Source of the DNA: Nonlabens sp. MB-3u-79
Lineage (GTDB): Bacteria > Bacteroidota > Bacteroidia > Flavobacteriales > Flavobacteriaceae
Assembly (NCBI RefSeq): GCF_002831625.1
Contig: NZ_CP025116.1
Span: 248,001-312,000 of the forward strand
Direction: 5' to 3'
Length of the DNA: 64,000 nucleotides
Shown here: in pieces, positions 3,365 through 61,000 of the stretch
How positions within the stretch are numbered: the first letter of the stretch is position 1
How the letters are laid out: each line of letters begins with the position of its first letter
Notes under the pieces: generated by a model
What the model saw: only the letters and a program-made list of their open reading frames with translations
The model's database searches: none
What the model was told of the DNA's origin: nothing
Made by a program: the position numbers and the translations under genes

Positions 3365-4783
3365 ATGTCAAAACGAAGAAAAAGAGCTCAAAAGTCCTTT
3401 GAAAATGTACCTGTAGTAGATGCTGGTGCAAAAGGTAAAAGTGTTGCAAAAACAGAAGAAGGTGAAGTGATTTTCCTTACAGATGCCGTCCCTGGCGATG
3501 TGGTTAACATACAAACCTTTAAGAAAAAGAAATCCTTTTACGAAGGGAAAGTAACTAAATTTATTGAATTAAGCGATAGACGTGCAGAGCCTGTTTGCAA
3601 GCATTTCAACACCTGTGGAGGCTGTAAATGGCAACACATGACTTATGAAAGTCAGTTGTATTTTAAGCAAAAAGAAGTAACTGAAAATCTTAAAAGAATA
3701 GGTCACCTGGAACTTCCAGAAATAACTCCTATTGCTGGTTCTTCAGAACAATACCGCTACCGCAACAAAATGGAGTTCAGCTTTTCTGCAAACCGTTGGT
3801 TGACACTAGAAGAGATTCAAAGTGACGTAGAAATTGAAGATAAAAAGGCGCTTGGCTTTCATATTCCTGGAATGTGGGATAAAATCTTGCACCTGGAGGA
3901 GTGCCATCTACATCCTCAAATAGGAGAAGATATTAGATTGAGTGTCCACGCTTTCGCGAAAGCGGAAAACATAGCCTACTTCAACCCAAGAGAGAAATCT
4001 GGAACATTGCGCACTTTAATGCTACGCATGTCTTCTACCGGAGAAAACATGGTGGTGATCCAGTTTTTTGAAGATAATGAAGTGCAAAGACTCGCCTTAT
4101 TAAATCATTTAAAGGAATCCTTTCCACAAATTACTTCTTTGCAGTACATCATCAATGAAAAAGCAAATGATACCATTTATGACCAAGACGTCGTTTGTTA
4201 TCATGGCCGCGATCATATCTATGAAGAAATGGAAGGTTTGCAATTCAAGATCAACGCCAAGTCATTTTATCAGACCAATAGCAAGCAAGCTTATGAACTG
4301 TATAAAATCACAAGAGACTTTGCTGGACTTACTGGAAAAGAGTTGGTCTATGATTTGTATACAGGAACAGGGACCATCGCACAATTTGTAGCAAAAGAAG
4401 CAAAACACGTTGTAGGAATTGAGGCTATTCCTGTAGCTATAGAAGATGCTAAAACCAATGCAAAGCATAACGGTATAGAAAACACTACCTTCTTTGCTGG
4501 CGATATGAAAGAAGTCTTTACTCAAGACTTTATCGATGAGCACGGACAACCCGATGTCATTATTACCGATCCACCACGAGACGGTATGCACAAAGATGTG
4601 GTCGCTCAATTAATTAAATTGAGTGCCGCACGCATTGTTTATGTGAGTTGTAACAGTGCAACACAAGCACGTGATCTTGCGTTACTAGATGAGAAATATA
4701 CCATCGCTAAAGTACAACCGGTAGACATGTTTCCTCAAACACACCATGTGGAGAATGTGGTTCTATTAGAATTAAAAAAATAA
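3365..4783 (+). CDS. rlmD: 23S rRNA (uracil-1939-C5)-methyltransferase
   Basis: RumA/RlmD-type SAM-dependent methyltransferase of 472 residues. An N-terminal TRAM RNA-binding domain (about 12-70) precedes a 4Fe-4S cluster motif (C78, C84, C87 in CGGC, plus a later Cys in LEECHLH). The SAM loop is DLYTGTGTIA and the nucleophile is Cys429 in YVSCNSATQARD. I start at MSKRRKRAQK, because the longer frame from 3323 would begin inside the promoter box. It is the first gene of a tight operon with the TlpA-like lipoprotein, DUF6452 and DUF6048. A copy of the GCTTTCGCGAAAGC palindrome lies in the reading frame and encodes HAFAKAEN. Confidence 0.95.
   Translation: MSKRRKRAQKSFENVPVVDAGAKGKSVAKTEEGEVIFLTDAVPGDVVNIQTFKKKKSFYEGKVTKFIELSDRRAEPVCKHFNTCGGCKWQHMTYESQLYFKQKEVTENLKRIGHLELPEITPIAGSSEQYRYRNKMEFSFSANRWLTLEEIQSDVEIEDKKALGFHIPGMWDKILHLEECHLHPQIGEDIRLSVHAFAKAENIAYFNPREKSGTLRTLMLRMSSTGENMVVIQFFEDNEVQRLALLNHLKESFPQITSLQYIINEKANDTIYDQDVVCYHGRDHIYEEMEGLQFKINAKSFYQTNSKQAYELYKITRDFAGLTGKELVYDLYTGTGTIAQFVAKEAKHVVGIEAIPVAIEDAKTNAKHNGIENTTFFAGDMKEVFTQDFIDEHGQPDVIITDPPRDGMHKDVVAQLIKLSAARIVYVSCNSATQARDLALLDEKYTIAKVQPVDMFPQTHHVENVVLLELKK
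3950..3963. repeat. Dispersed palindrome, copy 1 (inside rlmD)
   Basis: Exact GCTTTCGCGAAAGC; the flanks extend the symmetry to CGCTTTCGCGAAAGCG. Encodes AFAKA in rlmD. Confidence 0.9.
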
Positions 4784-4789
4784 CAGACA

Positions 4790-6286
4790 ATGAAAAATTT
4801 ATTCTGGGCTATGACGCTCGTTATCATTTCTAGCTCTTGTAACGAGACTCCAGAAATTGTAAAGCAAGAACAAAAAACAGTAGTTATTTCTGGTCATCTA
4901 CAACTTACTGATTCCTTAGAATTAGAGAAGATTACGGTCTATGGTTATGATATGATGAGTAAAAAATCTTTCCAAGAAGATGCTCTGGTAAATGAAAATG
5001 GCGATTTCACTACTTCCTTCCCTTTATCGTCGGCAAGTGCGCTATCTGTATATGGTAATAACAGTTTTCAAATTATAGCCATTCCTGGAGATAGTATTTT
5101 CATCAACTATACAGAAGGTAGAGATGAAGCTGCTTTTAAAAAGAGCATCACATTTAGCGGTAAAACAGCAACCACTCAAAAGACATTTCAAGAATACCTA
5201 GCTAGCAATCCACTAAAAACGGAAGCCTTTTATAAGGAAGAAAGCGAACTGGATTACAATGACTTAGAAAAGCTTATAGATGACCATACTAAAAAACTTA
5301 AAGACTATTATAAGAACTATCTGGATAATAAAACACTCAACAAGTACCTAAAAGACTACATCGCAACAGATAAGAAGTTTGCTATTATCAATACCAAAAT
5401 GGATTATGCTTCATTTGCCAATTACTACGGTAAAAAAGTGCCAGAAATGGACAGTCCTTATTATAAAGAGCTCGTTCATTTGCCTGAATTAACCGAGGAG
5501 GATATGGTCAATACGAATGCCGCCAATAGTATTCTTTACAACAACCATGCTTTTGCTTCTAGAGAAATAGAAAAAAAATTCCCCGAAGCAACTCCACAAG
5601 AAATCAACCAAGTCATCATTGAGAACGCTATTAAGGAGGGAAGTTACCTGAGCCAGCATACGGTTTCCATGCTTGTAATGGGAGATTTAGACGATCACTC
5701 CACAAAGCTTTACGAAGAAAATTCTGAACAGCTCATAGATTATTTAAAAAACTCTTCCTTGCTTGCCTCCATTCAACAAGAGTATTTAAAAACTAAAGAC
5801 CTTGTTGAAAATCCGCAAATTCCTACTGAAGCAGAATTACTAACGTTTAAAAGCGATGATGCTTCAAAATTCATTGATGAGATCATTAGCAATGCTAATG
5901 GTAAAGTAATTTATATCGACAACTGGGCTACTTGGTGCGGGCCTTGTAAAGCAGAGTTTAAAGAAGCTTCCCCTGCACTTCACGAGAAGTTTAAGGAAGA
6001 TGTAGAGTTTGTTTATTTATGTCATGCAAGTAAAGAAAAGGCATATATCCCATCTATTGCAGAGTATCAGATTAAAGGAAAACACTATTTCTTAACGGAA
6101 GAACAAGGAAGAATTGTTCAACAACAAATAAATCTAGAAGGTTTTCCTACCTATACTATTTTTGACAAAAAAGGAAACCGCGTTCTTTCTGATTATATTC
6201 ACAGACCTAGTTATGGACCTACCTCAGATGTTTTAACAAGACTGGTAAATGATAAAAAGGTTGATCTGGCAAATAGCTCTAAGTAA
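4790..6286 (+). CDS. TlpA-like thioredoxin-fold lipoprotein
   Basis: A 498-residue exported thiol-disulfide protein. The signal peptide ends in a lipobox (ISSSC, Cys17), so it is probably anchored in the periplasmic or outer-membrane leaflet. Residues 30-140 form a beta-rich domain like the DUF4369/N-terminal region of Bacteroidota TlpA proteins. A long helical middle follows. The C-terminal thioredoxin domain has NWATWCGPCKAE with the redox pair C383/C386 and the cis-Pro loop EGFPTY. It probably reduces or isomerises periplasmic disulfides, but the client is unknown. It starts six bases after rlmD and five bases before the DUF6452 gene. Confidence 0.85.
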   Translation: MKNLFWAMTLVIISSSCNETPEIVKQEQKTVVISGHLQLTDSLELEKITVYGYDMMSKKSFQEDALVNENGDFTTSFPLSSASALSVYGNNSFQIIAIPGDSIFINYTEGRDEAAFKKSITFSGKTATTQKTFQEYLASNPLKTEAFYKEESELDYNDLEKLIDDHTKKLKDYYKNYLDNKTLNKYLKDYIATDKKFAIINTKMDYASFANYYGKKVPEMDSPYYKELVHLPELTEEDMVNTNAANSILYNNHAFASREIEKKFPEATPQEINQVIIENAIKEGSYLSQHTVSMLVMGDLDDHSTKLYEENSEQLIDYLKNSSLLASIQQEYLKTKDLVENPQIPTEAELLTFKSDDASKFIDEIISNANGKVIYIDNWATWCGPCKAEFKEASPALHEKFKEDVEFVYLCHASKEKAYIPSIAEYQIKGKHYFLTEEQGRIVQQQINLEGFPTYTIFDKKGNRVLSDYIHRPSYGPTSDVLTRLVNDKKVDLANSSK

Positions 6287-6291
6287 TTAAA

Positions 6292-6804
6292 ATGAATAAA
6301 TACTCCAGCATACTTTTTATCCTTATCACAGTAATTCTGTTAGGCAGCTGTGAAAAAGATGATTTGTGTACGCCAGATCAGGCGGTAACCCCTAGACTGG
6401 TTATTGAGTTTAAAGATGTGTTGAATCCACTACAGAATAAGGCCGTAGATCGCATCCAAGCTCAAGAAATAGGAAGTAGTGCTTTTGCCCCTCTTGATAC
6501 CAGTGGGTCTACCACACTAAGCAATATAGAAACCATCTCTATTCCTTTGCGTACAGATAGTAGCAGGACCAGTTACAACCTAATTCTTACAAAAGATGGC
6601 GTTTTCAATTCAGACAACATAGACTTCAACTATATTCTAGAAGAAGCATATGTCAGTAGAGCTTGCGGTTTTAGAGTCGTTTACAATAATCTTGTGGCTA
6701 TTCAAACAGCAGAAACCTCTGGGATTCAATGGATAGAAAGAGTGATTATAGTAGAAGATAATGTAACTAATAATACAGACGTACATGTTCAAATACTTCA
6801 TTAA
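6292..6804 (+). CDS. DUF6452 family lipoprotein
   Basis: A 170-residue lipoprotein with signal peptide and lipobox (LLGSC, Cys20). The pattern CEKDDLCT, TPRLVIEF and VSRACGFRVVYNNL matches the DUF6452 family, found next to rlmD and DUF6048 in many flavobacteria. Function unknown; probably periplasmic or outer membrane. The last 20 bases overlap the DUF6048 gene, which suggests translational coupling of the two proteins and possibly a shared envelope role. Confidence 0.8.
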   Translation: MNKYSSILFILITVILLGSCEKDDLCTPDQAVTPRLVIEFKDVLNPLQNKAVDRIQAQEIGSSAFAPLDTSGSTTLSNIETISIPLRTDSSRTSYNLILTKDGVFNSDNIDFNYILEEAYVSRACGFRVVYNNLVAIQTAETSGIQWIERVIIVEDNVTNNTDVHVQILH

Positions 6805-7480
6805 CACATTAGTTCTTCTCTCTTGTTTTTTGGGTACCGCTCAAGGCGAAAACGAGATCAAAAATGACAGCGTCACTTATAAACAAGCTTATGGCTTACG
6901 TGCTGGTATAGATCTCGCTAGTTTGATAAGAACTGGTATAGATGAAGAATATACTGGTTTTCAAATTCTAGCAGATTACCGAATGTCAAAACGACTATAC
7001 ATCGCTGGTGAAATAGGTAATGAATCCATTGATAGAACCAGTGAACGTGTAGATTATAAAACTTCAGGTTCGTTTATAAAAGCTGGCGTCGATTACAACT
7101 TTTATCAAAATTGGCTGGATATGGATAACATGATCTATGGGGGCGCTAGACTAGGTTATGCAAATATGTCACAAACCCTTAATAGATACGACTACAATAC
7201 AGATAACAACTATTTTCCTGTTTTTACTAATGTAGTTGATAGAGAGTTTTCTGGATTGAATATGGTTTGGTTAGAAATCCAATTAGGATTTAAAGTACAG
7301 GTTTTGAATAACCTCTACCTCACTGCAAATCTTCAATTAAAACGAAGACTTTCAGAAAAAACACCAGACAACTTTGACCATTTATACGTACCAGGGTTTG
7401 GTAGAACATTTGACACTAACGGCATAGGAGTAGGATATTCCTATGGGATTACCTACCGAATTCCATTTGTTAGAAAGTAG
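6785..7480 (+). CDS. DUF6048 family outer-membrane protein
   Basis: A 231-residue protein with a cleavable signal peptide ending near FLGTAQG. The rest is alternating beta-strand sequence rich in Tyr, Gly and Asn (for example YGLRAGIDLAS, YIAGEIGNES, YGGARLGYANM). It ends in the aromatic-rich strand YSYGITYRIPF, so an outer-membrane beta-barrel is likely. It matches the DUF6048 family, the usual partner of DUF6452 proteins. It is the last gene of the rlmD operon and no terminator is obvious after it. Confidence 0.78.
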   Translation: MFKYFINTLVLLSCFLGTAQGENEIKNDSVTYKQAYGLRAGIDLASLIRTGIDEEYTGFQILADYRMSKRLYIAGEIGNESIDRTSERVDYKTSGSFIKAGVDYNFYQNWLDMDNMIYGGARLGYANMSQTLNRYDYNTDNNYFPVFTNVVDREFSGLNMVWLEIQLGFKVQVLNNLYLTANLQLKRRLSEKTPDNFDHLYVPGFGRTFDTNGIGVGYSYGITYRIPFVRK

Positions 7481-7516
7481 CTCCTATTTCAAAAAAATAA
7501 AAAAGCAGCAGGGTCT

Positions 7517-10053: not shown

Positions 10054-11117
10054 TGAAGATATTGCTCCTTCAATATCAAATGCTGGGTGATGTGCTTACA
10101 AGCACCATCATTGCAGATCAGCTCAAGATTACCTATCCTGACGCTCATCTGGATTACCTCATCATAGCACATGCTGATGCTTTGGTAAAACACCACCCAG
10201 CTATCGACGGACTTATTAAAGTCTCCAAGTCAGATTTTGAGAAAATGAGTTTTATCCTCTCGCTTTCGCGGAAGCTAAAACACAAAAAATACGACCTTCT
10301 TATAGATGCTTATGGTAAAAACAATAGCGCCTTACTATCCCTCTTATCAGGAGCAAAACAAAGAATAGGTTATAAGAAATGGTTTTCTAGTCTGGCCTAT
10401 ACAGATGCTGTAAAAAACAATCCTGACCCTTCTATCTACAAAACTGGTCTGGCATTAGGAAGCCGAATGCTACTCACTACACCTCTTACCAAAGAGGTGA
10501 AATGGCATTTAAAACCTAAAATCTACCTCACCAATCTAGAAAAAGAAGAAGGGAAAAAATGGCTTCACAAACAAGGTGTTGACCTAGAACAACCCCTCAC
10601 AATGGTAAGTGTTTTAGGAAGTAGTAAGAATAAAACCTTACCCTATTCCTACATGGCCAAGGTCCTTGATAAATTTGTAGCTACTACCGAGTCGCAATTA
10701 CTTTTTAATTATATCCCAAGTCAAAGAAAAGAGGCTCAGGCTATTTTTAGTGCTTGCTCTACGACAACACAACAACATATTTTTATCAATGCTTTTGCAC
10801 CTAGCATCAGAGATTTTCTAAAAATATTATCCCATTGTACCGGCATCATAGGAAATGAAGGAGGCGCAATAAATATGGGAAAGGCACTTGACATCCCTAC
10901 ATTCACCGTTTTTAGCCCATGGGTTAATAAGACCTCTTGGAATGTCAATGAAGATGGTAAAAAGCATATCTCTGTGCACTTACAAGATTACCAACCAGAA
11001 TTATACGGCGACTTGTCACCTAAACAAATGAAGGCTCAAGCCATGGAGTTGTATGAAGAATTTTCTCCTAAATTAATGTTTGGGGATTTAGATCAGTTTG
11101 TTCAAGAGAATTATTGA
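10053..11117 (+). CDS. Glycosyltransferase family 9 (heptosyltransferase-like)
   Basis: A 354-residue GT9 enzyme, the ADP-heptose:LPS heptosyltransferase type. The N-terminal Rossmann half starts KILLLQYQMLGDVLTSTIIADQLK. The C-terminal nucleotide-sugar half holds the usual GNEGGAINMGKALDIPTFTVFSPW. It probably adds a sugar to the lipid A-core on the cytoplasmic face. The start is GTG, overlapping the dapD stop by one base. A one-mismatch copy of the dispersed palindrome encodes LSRKLKHK near residue 72. It opens the surface-glycan patch. Confidence 0.85.
   Translation: MKILLLQYQMLGDVLTSTIIADQLKITYPDAHLDYLIIAHADALVKHHPAIDGLIKVSKSDFEKMSFILSLSRKLKHKKYDLLIDAYGKNNSALLSLLSGAKQRIGYKKWFSSLAYTDAVKNNPDPSIYKTGLALGSRMLLTTPLTKEVKWHLKPKIYLTNLEKEEGKKWLHKQGVDLEQPLTMVSVLGSSKNKTLPYSYMAKVLDKFVATTESQLLFNYIPSQRKEAQAIFSACSTTTQQHIFINAFAPSIRDFLKILSHCTGIIGNEGGAINMGKALDIPTFTVFSPWVNKTSWNVNEDGKKHISVHLQDYQPELYGDLSPKQMKAQAMELYEEFSPKLMFGDLDQFVQENY
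10262..10275. repeat. Dispersed palindrome, degenerate copy (inside GT9 gene)
   Basis: GCTTTCGCGGAAGC, one mismatch to the perfect form. Encodes LSRK. Confidence 0.65.
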
Positions 11118-13882: not shown

Positions 13883-14674
13883 TCAACGCGTTCTATTAAA
13901 AATACCTTTTAATTTATGCTTCACGCGTTTCTTTTTATGAAAAGCTTTTTGAAATTCTATTGTGTATTTCCACATAGTCTCTATAGTTGTATGAGCGTCT
14001 TCATCAGAAAGTCGAGCATAAGCTGTCCCCATAACTTCATACATCCATTTTTTAGGAGACAGACGTTCAAAGTTTTTAAGTCTATCCTCGTAAGGAATAT
14101 TATAAAACTTCATCCTATTGAGGTCTACTAAAGAAAAATGATAATTATTTCCGTCCTTCTTTATGAGCGTATTTCCTGGTGAATGATCTAAAAAATAAAT
14201 TCCAGCGTCATGCATGTCGAACATAAATTTTGAAAACTGCTGCAGTATATTCACTTTATCTTGTAACTCCTCATCGTTCGTGATCTCCCGGTAGGTAAAA
14301 TCATGCGCTGCATAAGCGCTGACATAGTAACTCTCCTGCAAGCCTACACCACTGAATTGCTCTAAATAAGCAATAGGTGACGGGGTTCCTATATTGTTTT
14401 TTACTAGATATTGTGCGTTGTAATAAGACCTGGCAGCCTTTGATTTTCTGAAAAACCTGTAGGCTATCTTGTTAATGAAATTAGGCGTTTTAAAGGATTT
14501 AACTACAAGCTTTCTATCATCGTAAGTAACAATTTTTATTTTATTGCGATCATCTCCTAACTGCTGGGTTGATTGATGAAATAAATGGAGTATTTCTTGA
14601 AACCGCTTTCGCGAAAGCGTGTTACTTACAAAGTTTTCTCTACTCATTTTATTTTTATCATTTTCAGACTGCAA
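13883..14674 (-). CDS. WaaP/Kdo-kinase family lipopolysaccharide kinase
   Basis: A 263-residue kinase-fold protein that probably phosphorylates LPS core sugar. The protein-kinase-like residues are visible: Lys59 in LVVKSF, Asp163 and Asn168 in FLDHSPGNTL, and Asp184 in LVDLNR as the DFG equivalent. ATGs at residues 1 and 10 are both possible. The N-terminal segment NTLSRKRFQE is encoded across a perfect copy of the dispersed palindrome. It faces a GT2 gene, consistent with a role in decorating the same glycan. The exact acceptor (Kdo or heptose) cannot be read from the sequence. Confidence 0.8.
   Translation of the reverse strand: MQSENDKNKMSRENFVSNTLSRKRFQEILHLFHQSTQQLGDDRNKIKIVTYDDRKLVVKSFKTPNFINKIAYRFFRKSKAARSYYNAQYLVKNNIGTPSPIAYLEQFSGVGLQESYYVSAYAAHDFTYREITNDEELQDKVNILQQFSKFMFDMHDAGIYFLDHSPGNTLIKKDGNNYHFSLVDLNRMKFYNIPYEDRLKNFERLSPKKWMYEVMGTAYARLSDEDAHTTIETMWKYTIEFQKAFHKKKRVKHKLKGIFNRTR
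14605..14618. repeat. Dispersed palindrome, copy 2 (inside LPS kinase gene)
   Basis: Exact GCTTTCGCGAAAGC, symmetric for 16 bases. Encodes LSRK near the N-terminus of the kinase. Confidence 0.9.
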
Positions 14675-14743
14675 AGAAACGGAAAAACCAGCAAATGGAC
14701 AGAATTACTTAATATTGCAGTATACCAATTTTATATTTTTCAA

Positions 14744-15535
14744 ATGTCTATAACATGTTCCCTAGTAACTCCTACTTACAACTGGCCTGAAGCGCTAGAA
14801 TTGCTGCTATTAAGCATTAAAAGACAAAGTGTATTACCAGACGAAGTCATCATCGCAGACGATGGCTCTACTGAAAAGACCCTGGAATTGATTAAAGAAT
14901 ATCAAAAAGATTTTCCAGTTCCACTTATACATGTCTGGCATGAAGATCAAGGCAATCGTAAGCCAGCTATCATGAATAAAGCAATCGCAAAGGCAAAGTA
15001 TGATTATATTCTAGAGATAGATGGTGATATTATTTTGCATAAGAACTTCGTTAAAGATCATCTTTCTATGGCTGAAGAAGGAGTTTACCTCTTCGGTAGC
15101 CGTGTCAATATTCAAGAGAAACATCTAGAAGACTTGTTTAAGAAGAAACAAATCGATTTTAACTACTTCTCTAAAGGTATTAAAAAACGCAATAGAACGC
15201 TGCGCATACCTTTCATAGCAAACAGAGCAAAAAAAGAAACAAAAAGGTCTGGTAAATTACGAGGCTGCAACATGTCCTTTTGGCGAGCAGACTTTATCGC
15301 TGTAAATGGTTTTAATGAAGAGTTAGTTGGATGGGGAATTGACGACAGCGAACTCATACAACGCATGATGAACAACGGTGTTCTAGGAAAGCGTATCAAA
15401 CATAAAGGCATTGTTTATCACATCTACCATAAAGAACAAGACAAAAGTCAAGTGCATTTAAATTTGGAGATAGAAAAACAAATGGAAAGTTCTGGAACTA
15501 CTTATGCCAGCAAAGGCGTAGATCAATATTTATAA
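14744..15535 (+). CDS. Glycosyltransferase family 2
   Basis: A 263-residue GT2 enzyme: CSLVTPTYNWPEALELLLLS, IADDGSTEKT, DxD motif in LEIDGDIIL, then RGCNMSFWRADF and GWGIDDSELIQRMMNNG, the galactosyltransferase-type C-terminal module. I start at ATG 14744. The open frame extends back to 14585, but that part overlaps the divergent kinase gene and is not GT-like. It is paralogous to 11183-12013. It ends one base before the end of the convergent gene at 15537. Confidence 0.85.
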   Translation: MSITCSLVTPTYNWPEALELLLLSIKRQSVLPDEVIIADDGSTEKTLELIKEYQKDFPVPLIHVWHEDQGNRKPAIMNKAIAKAKYDYILEIDGDIILHKNFVKDHLSMAEEGVYLFGSRVNIQEKHLEDLFKKKQIDFNYFSKGIKKRNRTLRIPFIANRAKKETKRSGKLRGCNMSFWRADFIAVNGFNEELVGWGIDDSELIQRMMNNGVLGKRIKHKGIVYHIYHKEQDKSQVHLNLEIEKQMESSGTTYASKGVDQYL

Positions 15536-19404: not shown

Positions 19405-19426
19405 TTCCGCTTTCGCGAAAGCGGAA
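19405..19426. repeat. Dispersed palindrome, copy 3 (intergenic, upstream of pepT)
   Basis: Core GCTTTCGCGAAAGC at 19409-19422. Symmetry extends to 22 bases, one of the two longest versions in the window. It lies about 35 bases before pepT. Confidence 0.92.
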
Positions 19427-24602: not shown

Positions 24603-24616
24603 GCTTTCGCGAAAGC
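24603..24616. repeat. Dispersed palindrome, copy 4 (intergenic, between nusB and the dehydrogenase)
   Basis: Exact GCTTTCGCGAAAGC in a 130-base gap, upstream of nusB. Confidence 0.9.
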
Positions 24617-28547: not shown

Positions 28548-31082
28548 ATGAAAAAAGTGATGTTGCTTTTGTTGGTTCTCACTTTTTGTTGTTCCGCTTT
28601 CGCGAAAGCCCAACAACAAAAAGAGCTGCCAGTACAAACCTTAATAGACCCTAGTCTTAATTATTACCTACCAGAAGGTGTTTCCTACAACCCTGAGATT
28701 CCAACACCACAAGAAATCATAGGTTTCGTTCCTGGAAAATGGCACGTGAGTCATGACAAACTGGTACAATACATGCAAGTTCTTGCAGAAAAGTCTGATC
28801 GTTTTACGATTGAAAATCGTGGGACCACCTATGAGGACAGACCGCTTTACTTACTTACAGTGACCAGTCCAGAAAACCATAAAAATATTGATCAAATAAG
28901 AACAGATCATATTGCTGCGACCAATAAAGAAAACGCAGATAACACCAACGCTCCTATAGTGGTATACCAAGGATTTTCTATTCATGGTAATGAACCTAGT
29001 GGCGCTAACGCATCATTACTTCTCGCCTATCATCTAGCCGCTGCACAAGGTCCAGAAATGGAAGCCTTGTTAAAAAACACCGTCATTCTTCTGGACCCTA
29101 GTTTAAATCCAGATGGATTGCAACGTTTTGCCAGTTGGGTAAATCAACATAAGAGTAAGAATGTAAATCCAGACACTTACGATAGAGAATATAATGAAGT
29201 ATGGCCGGGTGGACGTACCAATCATTATTGGTTTGATATGAATCGCGACTGGTTGCCTGTGCAATTACCAGAATCGCAAGCGCGTATAGAAACTTTTCAT
29301 AAATGGTTGCCTAACATTTTGACAGACCATCATGAAATGGGAACCAACTCTACCTTCTTTTTCCAACCAGGAATCCCATCCAGAACACACCCACTGACTC
29401 CCGCGATGAATCAAAAGCTAACCCGTCAAATAGGTAATTACCTCGCTGAAGGTTTTGATGAGATAGGCTCGCTGTATTACACAGAAGAAGATTACGACGA
29501 TTTCTATTATGGTAAAGGATCTACTTTTCCAGATATCAATGGTTCTATAGGAATTCTTTTTGAGCAAGCCAGTTCTCGTGGTCATGCTCAGAATTCTGAT
29601 AATGGCGTTCTTACTTTTCCGTTTACCATAAGAAACCAGTTTACGGCAGCTTTAAGTACTCTAAAAGCGGCAACCGGCATGCGTAAAGAACTACTGGATT
29701 ATCAAGCTCAATTTTACAAAGACGCTAGAAAGGAAGTTTCTAATGAAGCCATCATCTTTGGTGATCATACAGATGCTGGCCGTACCGATGCCCTTGCAGA
29801 AATATTATCAAGACATAAAATAGAAGTGCGCTCATTAAAAAATGACGTTTCTAAAAATGGCAAAACCTATAAAAAAGGATATGCTTACCTAGTTCCTAAA
29901 AACCAAAAAAACTCTCGTCTGATCAACGCGATGTTTGAAAAGAGAACAACGTTTCAAGACAGCTTGTTTTATGATATCAGTGCGTGGACATTCCCGCTGG
30001 CTTTTGATATGGATTATGATGAAAATGCCGACTTGAGCAATGGCATTACAAGGAACTCCAATACTGGTATAAACCAAATAGAAATTTCTGACTATGCCTA
30101 TTTAATGCCTTGGAATGAATACTACACACCTAAAGCTTTAAATACATTGCTATCAAAGGATATCAGAGCTAAAGTAGCTATGAAGCCTTTTTCCCTAAAC
30201 GGTAAACAATATGATTATGGCACCATACTTATTCCAGTTCAGAATCAAAAAATGAACACTTCAGAATTGCGTGATGTTCTCGGGGATATTTCGACTGATG
30301 CTAAAGTTGATTTTTACGGAGTCCCAACAGGGCTCACCGAAGGAATTGATTTAGGCTCACGTCAATTCAGAGCCCTTACCCAACCTAAAATCGCCTTGTT
30401 AGTAGGTGAAGGTATCAACCCTTCTGATGCCGGTGAGATCTGGCATTTGATGGACCAGAAATACGATATTCCTATAACTAAAATTGATCTTCAAGACATT
30501 AATCGCAAGGATTTGAGTCGATACAATACGATTATCGTTCCTGCTACTTACGGTAGCCCAGAAAATGAAGTAATCGATCAACTGAAAGAATGGACACGTG
30601 CTGGAGGTACTTTAATAGGTTATCGCAGTGCATTAAGCTGGATGAGTAGTTCCAAATTGCTACCCCTTAGCTTCAAAAAAACAGAAAACCCCGTTGAAAA
30701 CATCACTTTTGAACAGCGTAGCGACCATAGCGGTGCACAAAGAATAGGTGGAGCTATTTTTGAAACAAAACTAGACCGCTCTCATCCTATAGCTTTTGGG
30801 TTTAAAGATGATCAGTTGCCTATGTTTAGAAACACTACGCTGTTTGTAGAATCTCACAAAGACAGTTACCGCAACCCTATCAAATACACAAGCGATCCTT
30901 TAATGAGTGGTTATATCTCTGATATTAATTTAGAGGCATTAAGAAGCACAGTGCCATTTCAACATAATAATTATGGCCGTGGAAATGTGATTGGTTTTAC
31001 TGATAACACGCAGTTTAGAGCTTTCTGGTATGGAACTAACAAGTTGTTGATGAATGCTATTTTCTTTGCTAAAGAGATGTAA
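28548..31082 (+). CDS. M14 family zinc metallocarboxypeptidase, exported
   Basis: An 844-residue secreted or periplasmic zinc peptidase. The signal peptide ends CCSAFAKA, and the cleavage region is itself encoded by a perfect dispersed palindrome. The M14 domain has zinc ligands His146 and Glu149 in FSIHGNEPSG, the substrate-binding FDMNRDW (229-235), the zinc His in TDHHEMG (260-265) and the catalytic Glu in GILFEQAS. After about 380 residues comes a long C-terminal region including an IALLVGEGINPSDAGEIWHL class-I glutamine-amidotransferase-like fold. It probably trims peptides for uptake. The stop codon is followed without gap by the 8-bp tandem array. Confidence 0.88.
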   Translation: MKKVMLLLLVLTFCCSAFAKAQQQKELPVQTLIDPSLNYYLPEGVSYNPEIPTPQEIIGFVPGKWHVSHDKLVQYMQVLAEKSDRFTIENRGTTYEDRPLYLLTVTSPENHKNIDQIRTDHIAATNKENADNTNAPIVVYQGFSIHGNEPSGANASLLLAYHLAAAQGPEMEALLKNTVILLDPSLNPDGLQRFASWVNQHKSKNVNPDTYDREYNEVWPGGRTNHYWFDMNRDWLPVQLPESQARIETFHKWLPNILTDHHEMGTNSTFFFQPGIPSRTHPLTPAMNQKLTRQIGNYLAEGFDEIGSLYYTEEDYDDFYYGKGSTFPDINGSIGILFEQASSRGHAQNSDNGVLTFPFTIRNQFTAALSTLKAATGMRKELLDYQAQFYKDARKEVSNEAIIFGDHTDAGRTDALAEILSRHKIEVRSLKNDVSKNGKTYKKGYAYLVPKNQKNSRLINAMFEKRTTFQDSLFYDISAWTFPLAFDMDYDENADLSNGITRNSNTGINQIEISDYAYLMPWNEYYTPKALNTLLSKDIRAKVAMKPFSLNGKQYDYGTILIPVQNQKMNTSELRDVLGDISTDAKVDFYGVPTGLTEGIDLGSRQFRALTQPKIALLVGEGINPSDAGEIWHLMDQKYDIPITKIDLQDINRKDLSRYNTIIVPATYGSPENEVIDQLKEWTRAGGTLIGYRSALSWMSSSKLLPLSFKKTENPVENITFEQRSDHSGAQRIGGAIFETKLDRSHPIAFGFKDDQLPMFRNTTLFVESHKDSYRNPIKYTSDPLMSGYISDINLEALRSTVPFQHNNYGRGNVIGFTDNTQFRAFWYGTNKLLMNAIFFAKEM
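28596..28609. repeat. Dispersed palindrome, copy 5 (inside the M14 signal peptide)
   Basis: Exact GCTTTCGCGAAAGC encoding AFAKA at the likely signal-peptidase site of the M14 peptidase. Confidence 0.9.
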
Positions 31083-32667: not shown

Positions 32668-32793
32668 AATGTTTTATTTTAAAGTTAAGAAAATAATACC
32701 AATTCTCATAAGCTTTAAAAAAACATTGGCAAGCTCAGGAGCTCTTAAAAAATGTTGCTTTTCTTACTTAAAATAGAAAATGATATTGCTCTC

Positions 32794-32807
32794 GCTTTCG
32801 CGAAAGC
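32794..32807. repeat. Dispersed palindrome, copy 6 (intergenic)
   Basis: Exact GCTTTCGCGAAAGC, symmetric for 16 bases, between divergent genes and about 40 bases before the peroxiredoxin-like gene. Confidence 0.9.
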
Positions 32808-32848
32808 GTAACAAATCTCATACCTTTACTACTTATAAAGAAAACATT

Positions 32849-33403
32849 ATGTCCTTAACTCCTTCTACCATGCTGCCACTAGGAACGAAAGCTCCTGATT
32901 TCAATTTATTAGATACCGTAAGTAGCCAAATGCGGAATCTCAACGAGCTCAAAGGCTCTAAAGGAACTGTAGTGATGTTTATATGCAATCACTGTCCGTT
33001 TGTACTTCATATAAACGAAGAGTTGGTAAGAGTAGCTAATGATTACCGTGTGACTGGATTCCATTTCATTGCTATCTCTAGTAATGATGCCGTGAATTAT
33101 CCACAAGATGGACCTGAGTTCATGAGGCAAAATGCTGATGACCATGACTATCCTTTTCCTTATTTATACGACGCCACCCAAGAAGTAGCTAAAGCTTATG
33201 ACGCGGCCTGCACTCCAGATCTTTATCTGTTTGACGCAAGTTTACAATTGGTTTACAGAGGACAACTCGATGACTCTAGACCAGGTAATGGCGTACCGTT
33301 AACTGGAAGATCCTTAAGAGAGGCCATGGATGCTTTACTAGGAAATAAACAAGTACCACAACCACAAAAACCAAGTATGGGTTGCAATATCAAATGGAAA
33401 TAA
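32849..33403 (+). CDS. Thioredoxin-fold / peroxiredoxin-like protein
   Basis: A 184-residue cytoplasmic AhpC/TSA-type protein. APDFNLLDTVSSQMRNLNEL leads to VVMFICNHCPFVLHINEELVR with a CxxC pair (C46, C49). The later KAYDAACTPDLYLFDASLQLVYRGQLDDSRPG is typical of the 'thioredoxin family protein' with C-N-H-C active site. Likely a thiol reductase or peroxidase. I start at ATG 32849, because the frame from 32780 would read through the palindrome and is non-homologous. Confidence 0.85.
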   Translation: MSLTPSTMLPLGTKAPDFNLLDTVSSQMRNLNELKGSKGTVVMFICNHCPFVLHINEELVRVANDYRVTGFHFIAISSNDAVNYPQDGPEFMRQNADDHDYPFPYLYDATQEVAKAYDAACTPDLYLFDASLQLVYRGQLDDSRPGNGVPLTGRSLREAMDALLGNKQVPQPQKPSMGCNIKWK

Positions 33404-36071: not shown

Positions 36072-36085
36072 GCTTTTGCGAAAGC
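36072..36085. repeat. Dispersed palindrome, degenerate copy (downstream of the T9SS cargo gene)
   Basis: GCTTTTGCGAAAGC, one mismatch to the perfect form, 12 bases beyond the gene's stop. Confidence 0.65.
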
Positions 36086-42658: not shown

Positions 42659-42680
42659 TTCCGCTTTCGCGAAAGCGGAA
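42659..42680. repeat. Dispersed palindrome, copy 7 (intergenic, downstream of mdh)
   Basis: Core GCTTTCGCGAAAGC at 42663-42676, symmetric over 22 bases, identical to the long version at 19405-19426. Confidence 0.92.
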
Positions 42681-47196: not shown

Positions 47197-47745
47197 ATGA
47201 AAAAGCAACTTCTTTTTTTATTCTTTCTATGCTCTTCATTCCTCCTGTTTTCACAGAATGACGACTCCCTCACTTTCTCAAAATTAGACAAAAGCCCACT
47301 GGATGTTGTGATGTATCGAGATACAAATAAAGCAGCTGTTGCTAGAGTTATTTATAGCCGTCCTTCAAAACAAGATCGAGAAATCTTTGGAAAACTAGTG
47401 CCGTTTAACGCAGTTTGGAGAACTGGAGCAAATGAAGCAACAGAAATTGCTTTTTACCAAGATGTGAAAATCAACAATAAGTTAGTAAAAGCCGGTAGTT
47501 ATTCTCTTTATACGATTCCTGGTGAGGAAGAATGGAAGTTCATACTCAACACGGCTACTACACAATCAGGATTAGAATACGACCCCTCTAAAAACTTACT
47601 AACGGCAACAATGGACCTGCTTCCATCTCCACAAAAAATAGAATCTTTTTCTATCAGTTTTGTGGAGCAACAAAATGGAGGGTTACTTTTTTTAGGATGG
47701 GATGATACTATAGCAAGCATTGCATTTACAATGGTCACTCCCTAA
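47197..47745 (+). CDS. DUF2911 family protein
   Basis: A 182-residue exported protein with signal peptide (FLLFSQ). The DUF2911 core DVVMYRDTNKAAVARVIYSRPSKQDREIFGKLVPFNAVWRTGANEATEIAF continues with KAGSYSLYTIPGEEEWKFILN. Members are common secreted Bacteroidota proteins of unknown role. Its end overlaps the convergent queE gene by four bases. Confidence 0.88.
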   Translation: MKKQLLFLFFLCSSFLLFSQNDDSLTFSKLDKSPLDVVMYRDTNKAAVARVIYSRPSKQDREIFGKLVPFNAVWRTGANEATEIAFYQDVKINNKLVKAGSYSLYTIPGEEEWKFILNTATTQSGLEYDPSKNLLTATMDLLPSPQKIESFSISFVEQQNGGLLFLGWDDTIASIAFTMVTP

Positions 47746-48374
47746 GGAATGTTCAAATATTTATGGGTCTGTAAAGAAACTTGCCATTCTGGATTTTCCA
47801 TTACAAATTCTGTAATTAACGGAATCATCTTTTCACGCACCGACCACTCTGGCTGTAAAAAAAGCTTGCATTGAGAAGATACTTTTTCAGATTCCGCTTT
47901 CGCGAAAGCGAGATCATGACGATTAAAAACGATTACTTTAAGCTCGTGTGCTGATAGATAGACTTCTTGCAACGGCATTTTTGCTTTCTTAGGAGATAAA
48001 CAAATCCAGTCCCACTGACCAGTAAGCGGATATGCGCCACTGGTTTCTATATGAATATCAAGACCCGCATTTTTCAAACCTGTAGTAAGGGGTTCCATGT
48101 TCCAAGTAAGCGGTTCTCCACCTGTCACTACAATTGTTTTACTGTATTTAGCTGCGTTAGCAACTATGTGATCTACTCCAGTAGGCGGGTGCTTTTCTGG
48201 CGCCCAACTTTCCTTCACATCGCACCAGTGACAACCAACATCACAACCACCTACTCTAATAAAGTAAGCGGCACGACCCGTGTGATATCCTTCACCTTGA
48301 ATCGTGTAAAATTCTTCCATCAATGGCAACATGGTGCCTTTTTCTACTTGTTGCTGTAGGGTTTTTTCTAGCAT
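47742..48374 (-). CDS. queE: 7-carboxy-7-deazaguanine synthase (radical SAM)
   Basis: Radical-SAM enzyme of queuosine/7-deazaguanine synthesis that turns carboxytetrahydropterin into CDG. It has 210 residues from my start. After LMEEFYTIQGEGYHTGRAAYFIR comes the cluster motif CDVGCHWC (C44, C48, C51), then the SAM loop VVTGGEPLTWN and ETSGAYPLTGQWDWICLSPKK. I use ATG 48374; 48407 is also open. The palindrome at 47896 encodes LAFAKAESEK. No other que gene is seen in the window. Confidence 0.9.
   Translation of the reverse strand: MLEKTLQQQVEKGTMLPLMEEFYTIQGEGYHTGRAAYFIRVGGCDVGCHWCDVKESWAPEKHPPTGVDHIVANAAKYSKTIVVTGGEPLTWNMEPLTTGLKNAGLDIHIETSGAYPLTGQWDWICLSPKKAKMPLQEVYLSAHELKVIVFNRHDLAFAKAESEKVSSQCKLFLQPEWSVREKMIPLITEFVMENPEWQVSLQTHKYLNIP
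47896..47909. repeat. Dispersed palindrome, copy 8 (inside queE)
   Basis: Exact GCTTTCGCGAAAGC encoding AFAKA. Confidence 0.9.
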
Positions 48375-48508
48375 GCGGCAAAGATACGTTTTAGCAGTTG
48401 TTTTCATTAAACTTCAACCGGTTTAAAACTATTTTAACGGGTGGCAAACATCCTAAATTTAAAATATGTGATCAATTCTGTACTTTTACGGTATTAAAAA
48501 ACAGTTGA

Positions 48509-53507: not shown

Positions 53508-53920
53508 AACTAACTCCTTTCCACCTCGCCATTCCTGTTAAAGAAATCACGACCACTCGTGAATTTTATCGCGATACCTTAGGCTGCAAAGAAGGTCGCA
53601 GCTCTGATCATTGGGTAGACTTTGATTTTTTTGGACATCAACTTGTTATTCATGTGACCGAAGAAGCTCAAAAAGCGGCTGTAAATGCCGTAGATGGAAA
53701 AGCTGTTCCTGTTCCACATTTTGGTGTGGTTCTCGAGTGGGATATTTTTCACGCTTTCGCGAAAGCGGTAAAAGAAAAAGAAATTACTTTTATAATTGAA
53801 CCGTACATACGATTTGAAGGACTGCCCGGCGAGCAGGCTACTATGTTCTTCCAAGATCCTAGCGGTAATTCATTAGAATTCAAATCTTTCAAGGACTTTA
53901 ATCAAATATTTGCAACATGA
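53504..53920 (+). CDS. VOC family protein (glyoxalase/dioxygenase fold)
   Basis: A 138-residue vicinal-oxygen-chelate protein. Two beta-alpha-beta-beta-beta units carry metal-ligand candidates His7 in PFHLAIPVKE, His in PHFGVVLEW and Glu in GNSLEFKSF. The FRFEGLPGEQATMFFQDPSG segment (here IRFEGLPGEQ) suggests a glyoxalase/bleomycin-resistance-type member of the form common in marine bacteria. The reaction is unknown. A perfect palindrome encodes HAFAKA. Overlaps the next gene by ATGA. Confidence 0.8.
   Translation: MKLTPFHLAIPVKEITTTREFYRDTLGCKEGRSSDHWVDFDFFGHQLVIHVTEEAQKAAVNAVDGKAVPVPHFGVVLEWDIFHAFAKAVKEKEITFIIEPYIRFEGLPGEQATMFFQDPSGNSLEFKSFKDFNQIFAT
53753..53766. repeat. Dispersed palindrome, copy 9 (inside the VOC gene)
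   Basis: Exact GCTTTCGCGAAAGC, symmetric for 16 bases. Encodes AFAKA. Confidence 0.9.
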
Positions 53921-56291: not shown

Positions 56292-56315
56292 ATGGATTTA
56301 CTTTTTATTTATTCC

Positions 56316-56329
56316 GCTTTCGCGAAAGC
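56316..56329. repeat. Dispersed palindrome, copy 10 (intergenic, end of the barrel gene)
   Basis: Exact GCTTTCGCGAAAGC, seven bases beyond the barrel gene's stop codon, between that gene and its terminator. Confidence 0.9.
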
Positions 56330-56335
56330 GAAACT

Positions 56336-58063
56336 TTAAAAATCAAATTTATAAACGGCTCCTCCCATAATCTGTAAATTCTGAACTGGATAGTCTAAAT
56401 AATATTCATAGTTACCACCGGTTAGATTCTGACCTCGTAAGAATGCCGTTAATTTAGGATTGATCTTGTAATTGATATCTAGATTAAGGTCTATAAAAGA
56501 GTCCAAAGTTTCAGCTCCTACCCCGTTCCTAAAAGCCTCTCTTTGTCCTACAAAATATAGGGTTGTACCTATATTCCATTGATCAGTGATCTGGTAATTA
56601 CCTACGAGATCTGCGGTGAATTCTGGCAAGTGAGACGCCACATTGTTAAAGGAATCGCCATTCTCTACTTCATAACTAAAACCGGTAGCGTTTAACGTCA
56701 GGTTGAAAGCTGTATTTACATCAAAACTTAAGCTGGCTCCGTATTGAGCTGTATTCAAATCAGCATATTGTGTGTAGAACACATTCCCATGTTGATAAGC
56801 TTCCACTCCTGTAGTGAATGTTGCTCCCGCATCTTTATTATAAAAATACCTGTCGTTTTCAATTTTATAACCACCGAATACTTGGTAACCAAAATTCTCT
56901 GAGAGTTTTCCTTTAAAACCTAATTGCGCATCTACTAATCTGTTGGTTGGGGCAACGTTAACTGCTGGTGCGAGAAACACATTCTCATTTGCAAATTGTT
57001 GAAGGGAGTTCATATCCAGTCCACCACCAATGGTCACATAAGGGATAAACATTTCTTCTACTACTATATAACTAGCAACAACATCTGGATAGACATATAC
57101 ATCACTTTCAGAAGCTTCGTTATTGTTTAGATAATTCACTGTTGCTCCTAACTTTACTTTATAGTTATCTCCATAAAGATGGATGGCTGGATTCAATCCC
57201 GCTTTTAAATAAGAATAGTTTTCTGGAGCTGGAATCAATCCTTGCGTATCAAAACTACCGCTCAAATAATCTACCTCTACTCCAAGGGCAACTTCAGTTT
57301 CCATAATATCAAAACCTAATTGAGGTAACGCACTAACACGTATCTCACTAGCGTCATAACTAGAAGTCGTTCCTCTTAGGTTGACATCGATATCCTTAAA
57401 TACACCCTCAAAGAAAGTAGCCTTACCACCAAGACCGTAAGACAAATAGTTAAACCCTACATCCGTATCTTCTGTAAGTGGGTTGGTCGTATTCTCGTAA
57501 TCTCCATACAAGTTAGCTCCTTGATACCTTGCACCAGCAGTAATTCCCCAGCTCATATCTCTGTTGCGCATCCCATAAGAAACATCTAGTGAGGTATCTG
57601 AATAAGAATCATCTGCAATAGCCTCATCTATACCCCCTTGAGAAGAGATGTGATTGAAGAAAACACCTAGATCGCTGTCTTTATCTACTTCAAAGTTAGC
57701 AGCAAATTCGCCCAATACATTTACATAATTACCAAGACCTAGTCTCGCGTAATTTTTAAAGTATTTAGCTCTCTTAGTAGGCTTTAATCTAGAAAGATTT
57801 CCTTTTGCAGGCGTAAAAGTACTGGCTACAGGAACTGAAAAGATACTATAGGTGACTGGTTGCTTTTTCACCTTAGTAGTGTCGCTAAAAGCAGGGTTGC
57901 TTTTTACTTTAAAAGCATCACTAATAGACGGATCATAAGGTTTAACAAGTGTGATCGTCCCACCGTTTAATCTATTTTCCTCTTCCTCTGTTGTTTGTGC
58001 TATTGCGATTGTTGCACTTAAAGCAATAGCAGCAAGAATGGTGTTTTTTATATTGAAATTCAT
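56336..58063 (-). CDS. Outer-membrane beta-barrel (TonB-dependent-receptor-like, no plug)
   Basis: A 575-residue exported barrel. Signal peptide ends AIAIAQ. A short linker with TITLVKPYDPSISDAFKVKSNP precedes many aromatic strands; the last, NLQIMGGAVYKFDF, ends in Phe. The strand pattern is that of a TonB-dependent-receptor barrel, but no plug domain is seen. It lies seven bases after the TPR gene, a pair found together in many flavobacteria, so a joint envelope function is likely. Confidence 0.78.
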   Translation of the reverse strand: MNFNIKNTILAAIALSATIAIAQTTEEEENRLNGGTITLVKPYDPSISDAFKVKSNPAFSDTTKVKKQPVTYSIFSVPVASTFTPAKGNLSRLKPTKRAKYFKNYARLGLGNYVNVLGEFAANFEVDKDSDLGVFFNHISSQGGIDEAIADDSYSDTSLDVSYGMRNRDMSWGITAGARYQGANLYGDYENTTNPLTEDTDVGFNYLSYGLGGKATFFEGVFKDIDVNLRGTTSSYDASEIRVSALPQLGFDIMETEVALGVEVDYLSGSFDTQGLIPAPENYSYLKAGLNPAIHLYGDNYKVKLGATVNYLNNNEASESDVYVYPDVVASYIVVEEMFIPYVTIGGGLDMNSLQQFANENVFLAPAVNVAPTNRLVDAQLGFKGKLSENFGYQVFGGYKIENDRYFYNKDAGATFTTGVEAYQHGNVFYTQYADLNTAQYGASLSFDVNTAFNLTLNATGFSYEVENGDSFNNVASHLPEFTADLVGNYQITDQWNIGTTLYFVGQREAFRNGVGAETLDSFIDLNLDINYKINPKLTAFLRGQNLTGGNYEYYLDYPVQNLQIMGGAVYKFDF

Positions 58064-58069
58064 TATTTG

Positions 58070-61000
58070 CTAGTTTTGACCTGTCGGTACGACAGATGAA
58101 TTTGTTTTTGCAGCTTCAGTTTTGATTTTGGCAAGCTCATTTTGTGCTGTTACGACAACATCGGGATATTGCTTAAAATTGGCGATAACAGCATCAAGGA
58201 TAGTGGTTGCATTAAGCGTTTGGTTCAGTGCGTAGTAGCTTTGCGCCATGAGCACCAAGCCTTTTGCACTCCATAATTTATAACCTCCATAGTTTTTACT
58301 CAATCCGTTTACCGTAGTAATTACAGCTTCGTGTTTTCCTTCTTTGTTTTCAAAATAAGCTTTGTAATAGGTAGCCTCTGCAGCAAGACTTCCAGTAGCC
58401 GTCTGTCTTACTTTTTCATAACCAGCTTTTGCTGCTGCCTCATTTCCTTGTTTCCAAGAAGATCGAGCGATGATGATCTCTGCATCAGACCTTACATTGT
58501 TTTCAATACTGGAATCGCTCAAGACTTTATTAGCATAGGTAACAGCATCTCCATACTTTTCTGTTTCATAATACGCCTTCATCAAGTTAGATTGTGCATA
58601 AATCACATTTTGAGGGAAGTCTGCTAATTGTTCGAGTTGCTTTAATACCGGAATCGCTTTTACGTAATCTTTTGTTCCCAAGTGTATTTCACTAAGTCTC
58701 GCTAGTGCTTGCTCGGTAAACTCGCTGCGCTCTTTACTGGTGACGTAGTCATAATGAACAATGCTTTCTGCCTTTTTATCTTGAGAAAATTGTGCCTGTG
58801 CCAGATAGAAATGAGCTTTTAAAGCATACTTCCCATTAGGAAATTGCTGTAAGTACTTTTTCATTTCCCGAGCCGTGCCGCTCATATCTCCTTGAATAAA
58901 TGGCTGCTCTGCACTTTCATAAGCAGTATCATCCAGCTCATTATCAGTTATCTCTACTCCATCGAGACCTCTTACCCATACCGCATAATCATTTGTACGT
59001 CCTTGATCAATGTACACTTGTCTAGAACTACTGATGGCTTGTATTGCTTGTGGTGTGCCTGCATACTTCTCAGCAACTTGTTGGAACACCGTTAAGGAAA
59101 CTTCTAATTTACCCTCATTATACAATTGCAATCCTTTACGCATCATCGCTTGTGAGGTGTAACTGCTGTTAGGATACTCACTGATGAGTTTGTCATAGGC
59201 AAGTACTCCTTTAACTGCTTGGTTGGTATTGATGTAGGTATTCCCTAATTCATACATGACATCATCCCGATAGCTCGAAGTTCTAAATTTGGTAATGAAT
59301 TCTTCCAAATCTTCAATTTTGCGTTCATTCCTTTGAACAAAACCATAGGAAATTGCTTTTTGAAAAGCAGCATAGTCTGCATTGAAACCATTCATCTCTA
59401 TTGCTTTATTATAAGCTTCCATGCCCGGCCAGTAATTCTTCGTTACAAAGTTAGCATCTCCTATTCTTAGGTAAGCATCGTTTAGACGCACACGATTATT
59501 TTTGGTTGAAGCTTGTTGGATATAATCTGTGAAAGAACTGATGGCTTCTTCATATTTTTTAAGCTTGAATTGGGTATACCCCATATCATAATTATATAAA
59601 TCGTCTTCTTCTATAGAAGTGCGCATAGAACTCACCTTATTAAAATTGTCATACGCACCTACAAAGTCATTTAATTCATACATACTTTCCGCTTTCCAGA
59701 AAGCAGCCTTTTTCTTCAGTTCTGGGTCACTAATATATTCAACCGCCTTGTTCAGATTTGTTAACGCATCTCTATATGCACCAGCGGCATATAAATTAAG
59801 CCCATGGAATAAGGCTACTTTAGCATAAACCGCCTGGTTACCTTTTATTCTTCCGTCTTCTAATAACTTAAGAGCTTCTTCATAATTTTTTGAAGAGAAG
59901 TAAGAATCAATAAGAAACGCATTCATTTCTTCCTTTTTAACGCTATTAGGATAGGTCTCTAAATACGCAAGAATGACACCAGGCACACTATCGTAAGGGT
60001 TACCGTTTTCATAACTCAGCTTTGCGTAATTATAAGAAGCATCTTGAGAGATTTGATCATCAAGACCCATCTCACTTGCCTTTTTAAAAGCATTGAGCGC
60101 ATCTTCATTACGGTTCAATTTGATATAGCTTTGCCCCAAATGATAGTAAGCGTTTTGAGCGGTAGCATTTACACCGTCTATGATCTTATTAAAAGTTTCT
60201 ACGGCTTTCTCAAAGTCACCTTCCTTGTAATACGCGTATCCTAACTGATAGTAATCGTTATTATTCCAGCGCCCACGCACCCCTTTGTACTCTATGAGAT
60301 AAGGTAGTGCCTCTTCATACTTTTCCTGATTAAAAAGTGACTGACCTATAATTCGGTTCAATTCTGATTGCTCGTTGCGATTAGATTTAGGCAATTGTGA
60401 CTTTGCCAGCTCAATGGCTTTATCAAATCTTCCTAACTTATAATTTAAATCTGCTTGATAGTAAGAAAGTTTCTCATCTGTTTCTGGAGAAGATCCTACT
60501 TCATCAAAAAGATCACTTGCCTCTTGCAACTCGTCACTTTCATAAGCGATATACCCGAGATAATATTTTGCTTTGCTTCCATACTCGGGATCATCACTCA
60601 CACGATTTAAGAACGGCTTGGCCTCATCATACTTTCTGGACTGCACTAAAGTGTAACCTGTATTAAAATAATAAGGATTGATTTGCTTTCGCGAAAGCGT
60701 TCCCGTATCCACCTTTTGATACCATGTAGCCGCTTTTCTATAATTACCATTATCAAAATAATAATCTGCCACATCTATAACCGCAGAGTTTCTCTTAGTT
60801 GAAGTAGGGTATTCTTCTACAAAACGCTCCACCAACTGGTCGGCATTACGCTGGTTGAGTCGTACAGCACAATTTGCTATATAGTAGGAAGCGTTACCTT
60901 TAACCACCTCATCTTTAGAAGACTGCATTGCTTTTTCAAAAAGTCGTTGTGCAGCGAGGTATTGATCTTCCTGATAAAGATCCAAGGCTTGATTGTAAGT

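Follow-up and report, generated by a model that had tools for sequence, protein, structure and literature searches.

The DNA analysed here (the window, meaning the whole stretch of 64 kb) comprises bases 248001-312000 of the 3.18-Mb, single-contig genome of Nonlabens sp. MB-3u-79, referred to below as G000. Scattered through its genes and intergenic regions is a perfectly palindromic 14-mer, GCTTTCGCGAAAGC, present in 11 exact and two one-mismatch copies, all of which lie where a previous sequence-only reading had placed them. When up to two mismatches were allowed, 14 matches to the 14-mer were obtained in the window, compared with a mean of 0.11 in shuffled sequences (0 of 100 shuffles reached 14); the 14th match, at 59691, carries two mismatches and may be due to chance. 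No Rfam match was found within the window. The 13 copies are listed below with their state in other genomes (G010 and G242 are congeners, G206 belongs to another genus); no strand is assigned to any of them.

3950..3963, exact copy in an rlmD-like open reading frame (ORF) at 3323-4783, in frame 0, coding for Ala-Phe-Ala-Lys-Ala (AFAKA); exact in G010, unaligned in G242
10262..10275, one-mismatch copy GCTTTCGCGGAAGC; the orthologous place is exact in G010 and G242
14605..14618, exact copy 20 nt inside the ORF at 14585-15535; core identical in G010 and G242
19409..19422, exact copy, intergenic, with a pepT-like ORF downstream
24603..24616, exact copy, intergenic; exact in G242, one mismatch in G010
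28596..28609, exact copy 48 nt into the ORF at 28548-31082, in frame 0
32794..32807, exact copy 14 nt inside the ORF at 32780-33403
36072..36085, one-mismatch copy GCTTTTGCGAAAGC, intergenic; degenerate in G010, exact in G242
42663..42676, exact copy, intergenic; also exact in G206, at the corresponding intergenic position
47896..47909, exact copy in the ORF at 47742-48407, in frame 0
53753..53766, exact copy in frame 0 of a small ORF; in G206 a copy with one mismatch lies no more than one codon away
56316..56329, exact copy, intergenic, 6 bp from the end of the ORF at 56336-58063
60685..60698, exact copy in the ORF at 58070-61093

Six of the 13 copies had been described as intergenic. Taking the longest ORF at each place, five are (19409, 24603, 36072, 42663 and 56316), while the copies at 14605 and 32794 are barely inside ORFs; the count varies because it depends on the choice of start codon.

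Abundance and spacing of the motif

Searching the complete G000 genome revealed 563 exact copies of the motif, while the reversed word used as a control was absent (0 copies); 636 copies were found in total with up to one mismatch. In a 464-kb sample of the genome, 82 copies were observed against a mononucleotide expectation of 0.0006. The motif is thus far more frequent than base composition predicts, as had been claimed from the window. Furthermore, perfect copies outnumber singly mismatched copies in all five motif-rich genomes tested (563/73 in G000; 578/87, 664/74, 408/128 and 857/160 in the four others). There are 42 possible one-mismatch words, and the reversed control at up to one mismatch gave 0, 0, 0, 5 and 1 matches in the five genomes.

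The gaps between copies in the window have a mean of 4728 bp and a standard deviation (SD) of 1192 bp when the near-copies are included, in agreement with the earlier hand calculation, and a mean of 5674 bp and an SD of 2582 bp for exact copies alone. Beyond the window, gap statistics for each genome were taken from the first copies among the matches listed. For the first 100 copies of G000 (0-507 kb), the mean gap is 5068 bp and the coefficient of variation (CV) is 0.69, compared with 0.99 for random placement (0 of 5000 simulations were as low), and the gaps deviate from an exponential distribution (p = 8e-6, Kolmogorov-Smirnov test). The even spacing proposed from the window holds to the extent that genomic gaps are not exponential; the genome is less regular than the window, with gaps reaching about 20 kb. 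Neither exponential gaps nor a copy number near the composition expectation, the two outcomes named in advance as fatal to the sequence-only reading, was found.

The spacing also shows a shortage of short gaps. In G000, 11 gaps were under 2 kb while 32 were expected (first 100 copies). Gaps below 1 kb numbered 2 against an expected 9.9 in G206, 0 against 10.0 in G190, 4 against 23.1 in G553 and 5 against 18.7 in G533 (first copies listed), so close pairs are depleted in five of five genomes examined. The overall gap CV of G533 is 0.92; long empty stretches keep it from falling below chance. Twenty 20-kb stretches sampled along the G000 chromosome contained 4, 5, 4, 4, 5, 4, 3, 4, 3, 3, 4, 4, 4, 4, 4, 0, 3, 3, 4 and 2 copies (variance/mean 0.34); since 18 of the 20 hold three to five, a strong regional restriction is unlikely. 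The stretch with no copy has, by eye, many small hypothetical genes. Three gaps of about 20 kb were also read: one contains low-GC, sugar-transferase-like genes, and the other two look like ordinary core genes. Copy number is weakly correlated with genome size (r = 0.23 among 20 genomes and 0.34 among 13 genomes, all at least 90% complete).

Site anatomy, positional conservation and origin

Three features were not part of the sequence-only reading: the excess of perfect over mismatched copies given above, a symmetric extension of the site to about 40 bp, and the conservation of positions. Comparison of the copies indicates that the 14-mer forms the centre of a longer, symmetric site spanning about 40 bp, which takes the form TNNTNNTNNTTYC-GCTTTCGCGAAAGC-GRAANNANNANNA in Nonlabens. 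The arms were analysed in 76 copies touching no ORF of 60 aa or longer, just one of them from G190. T is favoured at positions -4, -7, -10 and -13 (mean 0.70-0.75 in Nonlabens and 0.60 in G206), compared with 0.34-0.42 in the other two phases; this contrast was matched by 0 of 2000 permutations, and the information fades past about -16. C occupies position -1 at a frequency of at least 0.88 in the Nonlabens genomes and G206, and of 0.61 in G190, while at -2 Nonlabens mostly has C or T, and A fills 0.56 of the arms in G206 and 0.50 in G190. The flank bases beside the core differ between genera, in the manner of dialects.

Long inverted arms are not the rule (intergenic arm complementarity 7.33 versus 7.0 in shuffled pairs, SD 0.25, and genic complementarity 6.0 versus 6.0, in Nonlabens). 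At one place, window positions 28581-28624, the motif is flanked on each side by a 15-bp insertion absent from G010 and G242. These insertions enclose the core as inverted arms, close to where the ORF at 28548-31082 starts and probably at the location of a signal peptide.

In the 464-kb sample of G000, 55 of the 82 exact copies lie in ORFs, and 38 of these 55 are in the frame that reads AFAKA; the remaining 27 fall outside ORFs of 80 aa or more, though such ORFs cover 85% of the sample. Seven of the 38 AFAKA-frame copies begin 39-75 nt past the ORF start, a common end zone of signal peptides. A gene divergent from the operon of the competence gene DUF5689 has the motif near its start in both G206 (L366:644-1750) and G000 (L362:9187-10287), where it codes for AFAKA in a likely signal peptide. 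Two roles suggested by location were rejected. Among 25 intergenic copies for which both neighbours are known, seven have neighbours oriented plus/plus, eight minus/minus, four plus/minus and six minus/plus; there is no preference for convergent ends and the window has no Rfam match, and therefore a terminator or RNA role was discarded. Similarly, close motif pairs do not mark an autoregulated reader gene, as the pair regions contain unrelated genes by eye.

To describe positional conservation, the window was compared with syntenic DNA of the congeners G010 and G242, which is 78% identical. Sites identical over 14 bp made up 10 of 13 aligned sites in one congener and 10 of 12 in the other, in alignments that may be aided by the motif itself (most at 28596), while identical control 14-mers made up 5% in coding and 8% in non-coding DNA. 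The 11 exact window copies are exact at 10 of 11 aligned places in G010 and at all 10 aligned places in G242, and every aligned window site had a counterpart in the congeners except the degenerate one at 36072 in G010. In the reverse comparison, the congeners have 15 and 16 sites (near-copies included), of which 12 each could be aligned, and all of these matched the window with at most one mismatch; the three and four sites that could not be aligned may be gains, losses or outside the region. Five window sites were also compared with other genera. G206 shares one of them exactly, at the same intergenic position, and carries a copy with one mismatch no more than one codon from another; of the remaining three, two are unshared and one defied placement. 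G190 shares none of the five positions. As judged from these comparisons, positional conservation is weaker between genera than between congeners.

The RlmD gene provides a view of how a copy originates. Its 14-mer aligns without gaps to every one of the 80 orthologues shown. The word is common to the two Nonlabens loci; it is missing from the other 78, most of which encode Phe-Ala there. In this one gene examined, the alignment indicates that the copy arose by substitution and not by insertion. An insertion-type mobile element is thereby contradicted as the main origin, and the earlier statement that the motif does not look like a transposon end agrees with this gene.

Distribution among genomes

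All 23 Nonlabens genomes are rich in the motif (288-857 copies), as are all 18 genomes of a second genus (369-905 copies), that of G206, which is Dokdonia by tree. A third genus is represented by one rich genome, G190 (408 copies). In a family sample of 249 genomes, five were rich, namely three of the window's genus together with G190 (408 copies) and G206 (857 copies), and the others had 0-17 copies. In a phylum sample of 296 genomes, the window's genome alone was rich and the others had at most 4 copies; among 40 relatives of G190, the rich ones were G190 itself and G010 alone.

An RlmD search of named genomes yielded 80 loci, from which the window's own record may be absent. The top two are Nonlabens (82-85% identity), both with the motif; one Dokdonia locus also has it, and the remaining 77 have no exact copy. 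In a quick RlmD tree, G206 groups with Dokdonia, and G190 is near Leeuwenhoekiella and Dokdonia; two Leeuwenhoekiella loci of about 21 kb each contain no exact copy. The tree requires three changes in motif status, with which a single origin may be compatible.

Other genera contain small groups of copies, and in several of these groups a spacing of 933 bp recurs. Twenty copy-bearing stretches from such genera were taken and the genes of six were read. These six (L031, L034, L035, L037, L042 and L043, from other Flavobacteriaceae genera) contain, by eye, copper/cation efflux-like genes and a Fur-like regulator, with the motif at fixed places; in four of the six, motif copies are 933 bp apart within a 405-aa gene. 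The copies at efflux genes are probably imports from motif-rich lineages. Faster decay of copies in other genera was considered and rejected (40 exact versus 10 one-mismatch copies, Fisher p = 0.11, not significant, in 20 stretches selected for carrying exact copies). Dialect palindromes in other genera were likewise not supported by a weak scan for repeated palindromes (about 20 kb per genome; L031-L050 and L071-L170), which yielded, besides the motif and a run of N, A/T-only 10-mers occurring four times each in L115, L127, L131 and L151. A GC-rich second palindrome, GCCTGCCGGCAGGC, occurs three times within the 20 kb of L075 (G190:C1:100001-120000).

Two phages of Nonlabens (P12024S and P12024L; 71 kb) contain no copy of the motif, even at two mismatches. 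A scan of IMG/VR viral contigs gave at least 120 stretches with a copy, at least 11 of which have two or three, and the motif may be present in some phages, perhaps temperate ones.

Candidate functions

The observation on which the sequence-only reading was built is confirmed, and its interpretation is partly supported. Among the roles it proposed, a DNA-uptake tag and a nucleoid or segregation site are the leading rivals and are not decisively separable by sequence, while methylation and recombination rank lower. By analogy with known systems, we tentatively read the motif as a tag, similar to a DNA uptake sequence, that marks kin DNA, with a confidence slightly short of even. A putative surface or periplasmic DNA receptor, carried by a flavobacterial competence system unlike the classical ones, would prefer site-bearing DNA, and recombination of imported tagged DNA would keep replacing damaged copies. 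Such repair would explain why perfect copies are in excess and why positions are stable.

The uptake signal sequences (USS) of Pasteurellaceae and the DNA uptake sequences (DUS) of Neisseriaceae share a strong consensus in which perfect copies exceed mismatched ones, described as a puzzling trait unlike the relaxed sites of regulatory proteins (PMC1626085). Whatever its role, an account of the motif has to explain this same excess. The perfect-copy excess of our motif is a hallmark of uptake sequences and therefore favours this reading. The motif is also like USS and DUS in its hundreds of copies, its presence in both coding and intergenic DNA, its origin by substitution and its clade-specificity with flank differences; the genic and intergenic copies, the substitution origin, the flank differences between genera and the two empty phages therefore fit an uptake tag. 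The site-poor stretches (sugar-transferase-like genes; small hypothetical genes) were also counted in its favour, as were the favoured AFAKA frame and the weak correlation of copy number with genome size. Natural transformation is reported in the family, and Riemerella columbina shows a preference for DNA of its own kind (PMC7965970). In addition, a mutant screen in R. anatipestifer (PMC8459023) identified essential genes unlike known machinery, besides ComEC, DprA, ComF and RecA; type IV pilus homologues, however, are listed for Flavobacterium johnsoniae (PMC7965970). Of the competence genes from the screen, we found DUF5689 in 17 of 18 genomes and ComEC in 18 of 18, all five rich genomes included; uptake machinery thus appears to be present, which is no proof of competence.

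Several points weigh against an uptake tag. The same competence genes are present in motif-poor relatives, and the trees of DUF5689, of its outer-membrane neighbour and of ComEC do not follow motif status: G190 and G206 are together in the ComEC tree and near each other in the DUF5689 tree, but motif-poor genomes are interspersed with them or adjacent to them, and G000 is placed apart from both. To our knowledge, uptake sequences are asymmetric and 9-12 bp long, and a palindrome in a symmetric 40-bp frame differs from them. The motif is, moreover, sparser than USS and DUS (one per 4-6 kb versus about one per 1-1.5 kb), and it belongs to a family in which some competence genes differ from the classical set. 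Two of the three long site-poor stretches read do not look island-like, and four IMG/VR stretches that are phage-like by eye (L222, L256, L191 and L205) carry two or three copies. The conserved places and depleted close pairs are at least as much in keeping with a structural role, and a nucleoid protein would account equally well for the palindrome, the symmetric footprint, the spacing and the stable places.

The candidates examined yielded no reader protein, and none of the three competence genes tested follows the motif. In G000, the DUF5689 protein (L362:4774-6189) is about 33% identical to those of G010 and G242 (L363 and L364), while the outer-membrane neighbour of this gene is about 82-83% identical between G000 and its congeners, as if a surface protein had been swapped. 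DUF5689 is an unlikely reader, since its G000 form diverges from those of G010 and G242, which are just as rich in the motif, and ComEC was rejected because its tree does not track the motif.

Alternatively, a putative homodimeric nucleoid or segregation protein might bind the palindrome roughly every 5 kb along the whole chromosome, serving for bridging, domain borders, occlusion or loading, with each copy individually maintained. We regard this role as a close rival, somewhat less likely than the uptake tag. It agrees with the palindrome within a symmetric site of about 40 bp, the depletion of short gaps in five of five genomes, the spread of copies along the sampled chromosome (three to five in 18 of 20 stretches) and the same-place conservation in congeners. 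The known parS, Noc, SlmA and matS sites are likewise dispersed palindromes on the chromosome. However, those sites are few or restricted in position, whereas the motif occurs in hundreds and in all but one of the sampled parts of the chromosome. A Noc-like second ParB was rejected as the reader, because each of the five rich genomes has a single ParB_N match. Protein-binding sites are also usually more relaxed in consensus, gaps of about 20 kb are tolerated in core-like genes, and the CV of G533 is not below chance.

A word kept by a DNA methyltransferase or by a mutational or repair bias, comparable to the highly iterated palindrome HIP1 (GCGATCGC) of cyanobacteria, is unlikely. HIP1 has been linked to methyltransferases that recognise its interior (PMC4390886). 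The motif is similarly a highly iterated palindrome of unsettled function, and the nested TCGCGA exceeds expectation (117 versus 55 in the G000 sample). However, this excess is due to the 14-mer itself: when the 82 full copies are subtracted, TCGCGA falls below expectation, and TTTCGCGAAA, which the sample contains 86 times, belongs to the full 14-mer in 82 cases. Methyltransferase sites are far shorter than 14-16 bp, and a context bias would be expected neither to spare the two Nonlabens phages nor to hold positions. Unlike HIP1, the motif is a much longer and different word without GATC or CGATCG in its interior, is sparse and spaced with symmetric flanks, and occurs in Bacteroidota.

Similarly unlikely is a signal for recombination control, replication or repair of the Chi type, although one copy per 4-6 kb is near the density of Chi in E. 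coli. Chi and the KOPS (FtsK orienting polar sequences) are short, asymmetric and co-oriented with replication, whereas a palindrome cannot be oriented and its forward and reverse counts are necessarily equal, an argument already made from the window; the word is also much longer than known Chi and is absent from most sampled genera. Finally, hundreds of near-identical copies might suggest many insertions of a mobile palindromic repeat resembling repetitive extragenic palindromes (REP) or miniature inverted-repeat transposable elements (MITE), which is very hard to believe given the one favoured reading frame in ORFs, the gap-free RlmD copy, the short and symmetric shared flanks with no longer element, and the stable positions.

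Full-text literature searches, in which subscription journals were thinly covered, found no description of the motif. Earlier word searches in R. columbina, R. anatipestifer and F. johnsoniae extended to at most 10 bp and gave mostly A-rich results (PMC7965970). We think it probable that three flavobacterial genera share a system not described before, whose dedicated reader, a dimer, would recognise a symmetric site of about 40 bp every 5 kb or so along the whole chromosome. The site would then be either the first known tag for self-DNA read by a non-classical uptake machine or the first whole-chromosome spacing code of a nucleoid protein. If the uptake tag is true, we know of no earlier sequence-specific self-DNA label in Bacteroidota, and the motif would offer a concrete model for a preference for own DNA like that of Riemerella columbina. 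If the nucleoid site is true, it would be a rare, evenly spaced protein-binding code across a whole chromosome. On either reading, the exact site with its flanks would serve as a bait for the reader protein, and the cultured marine hosts make the question testable.

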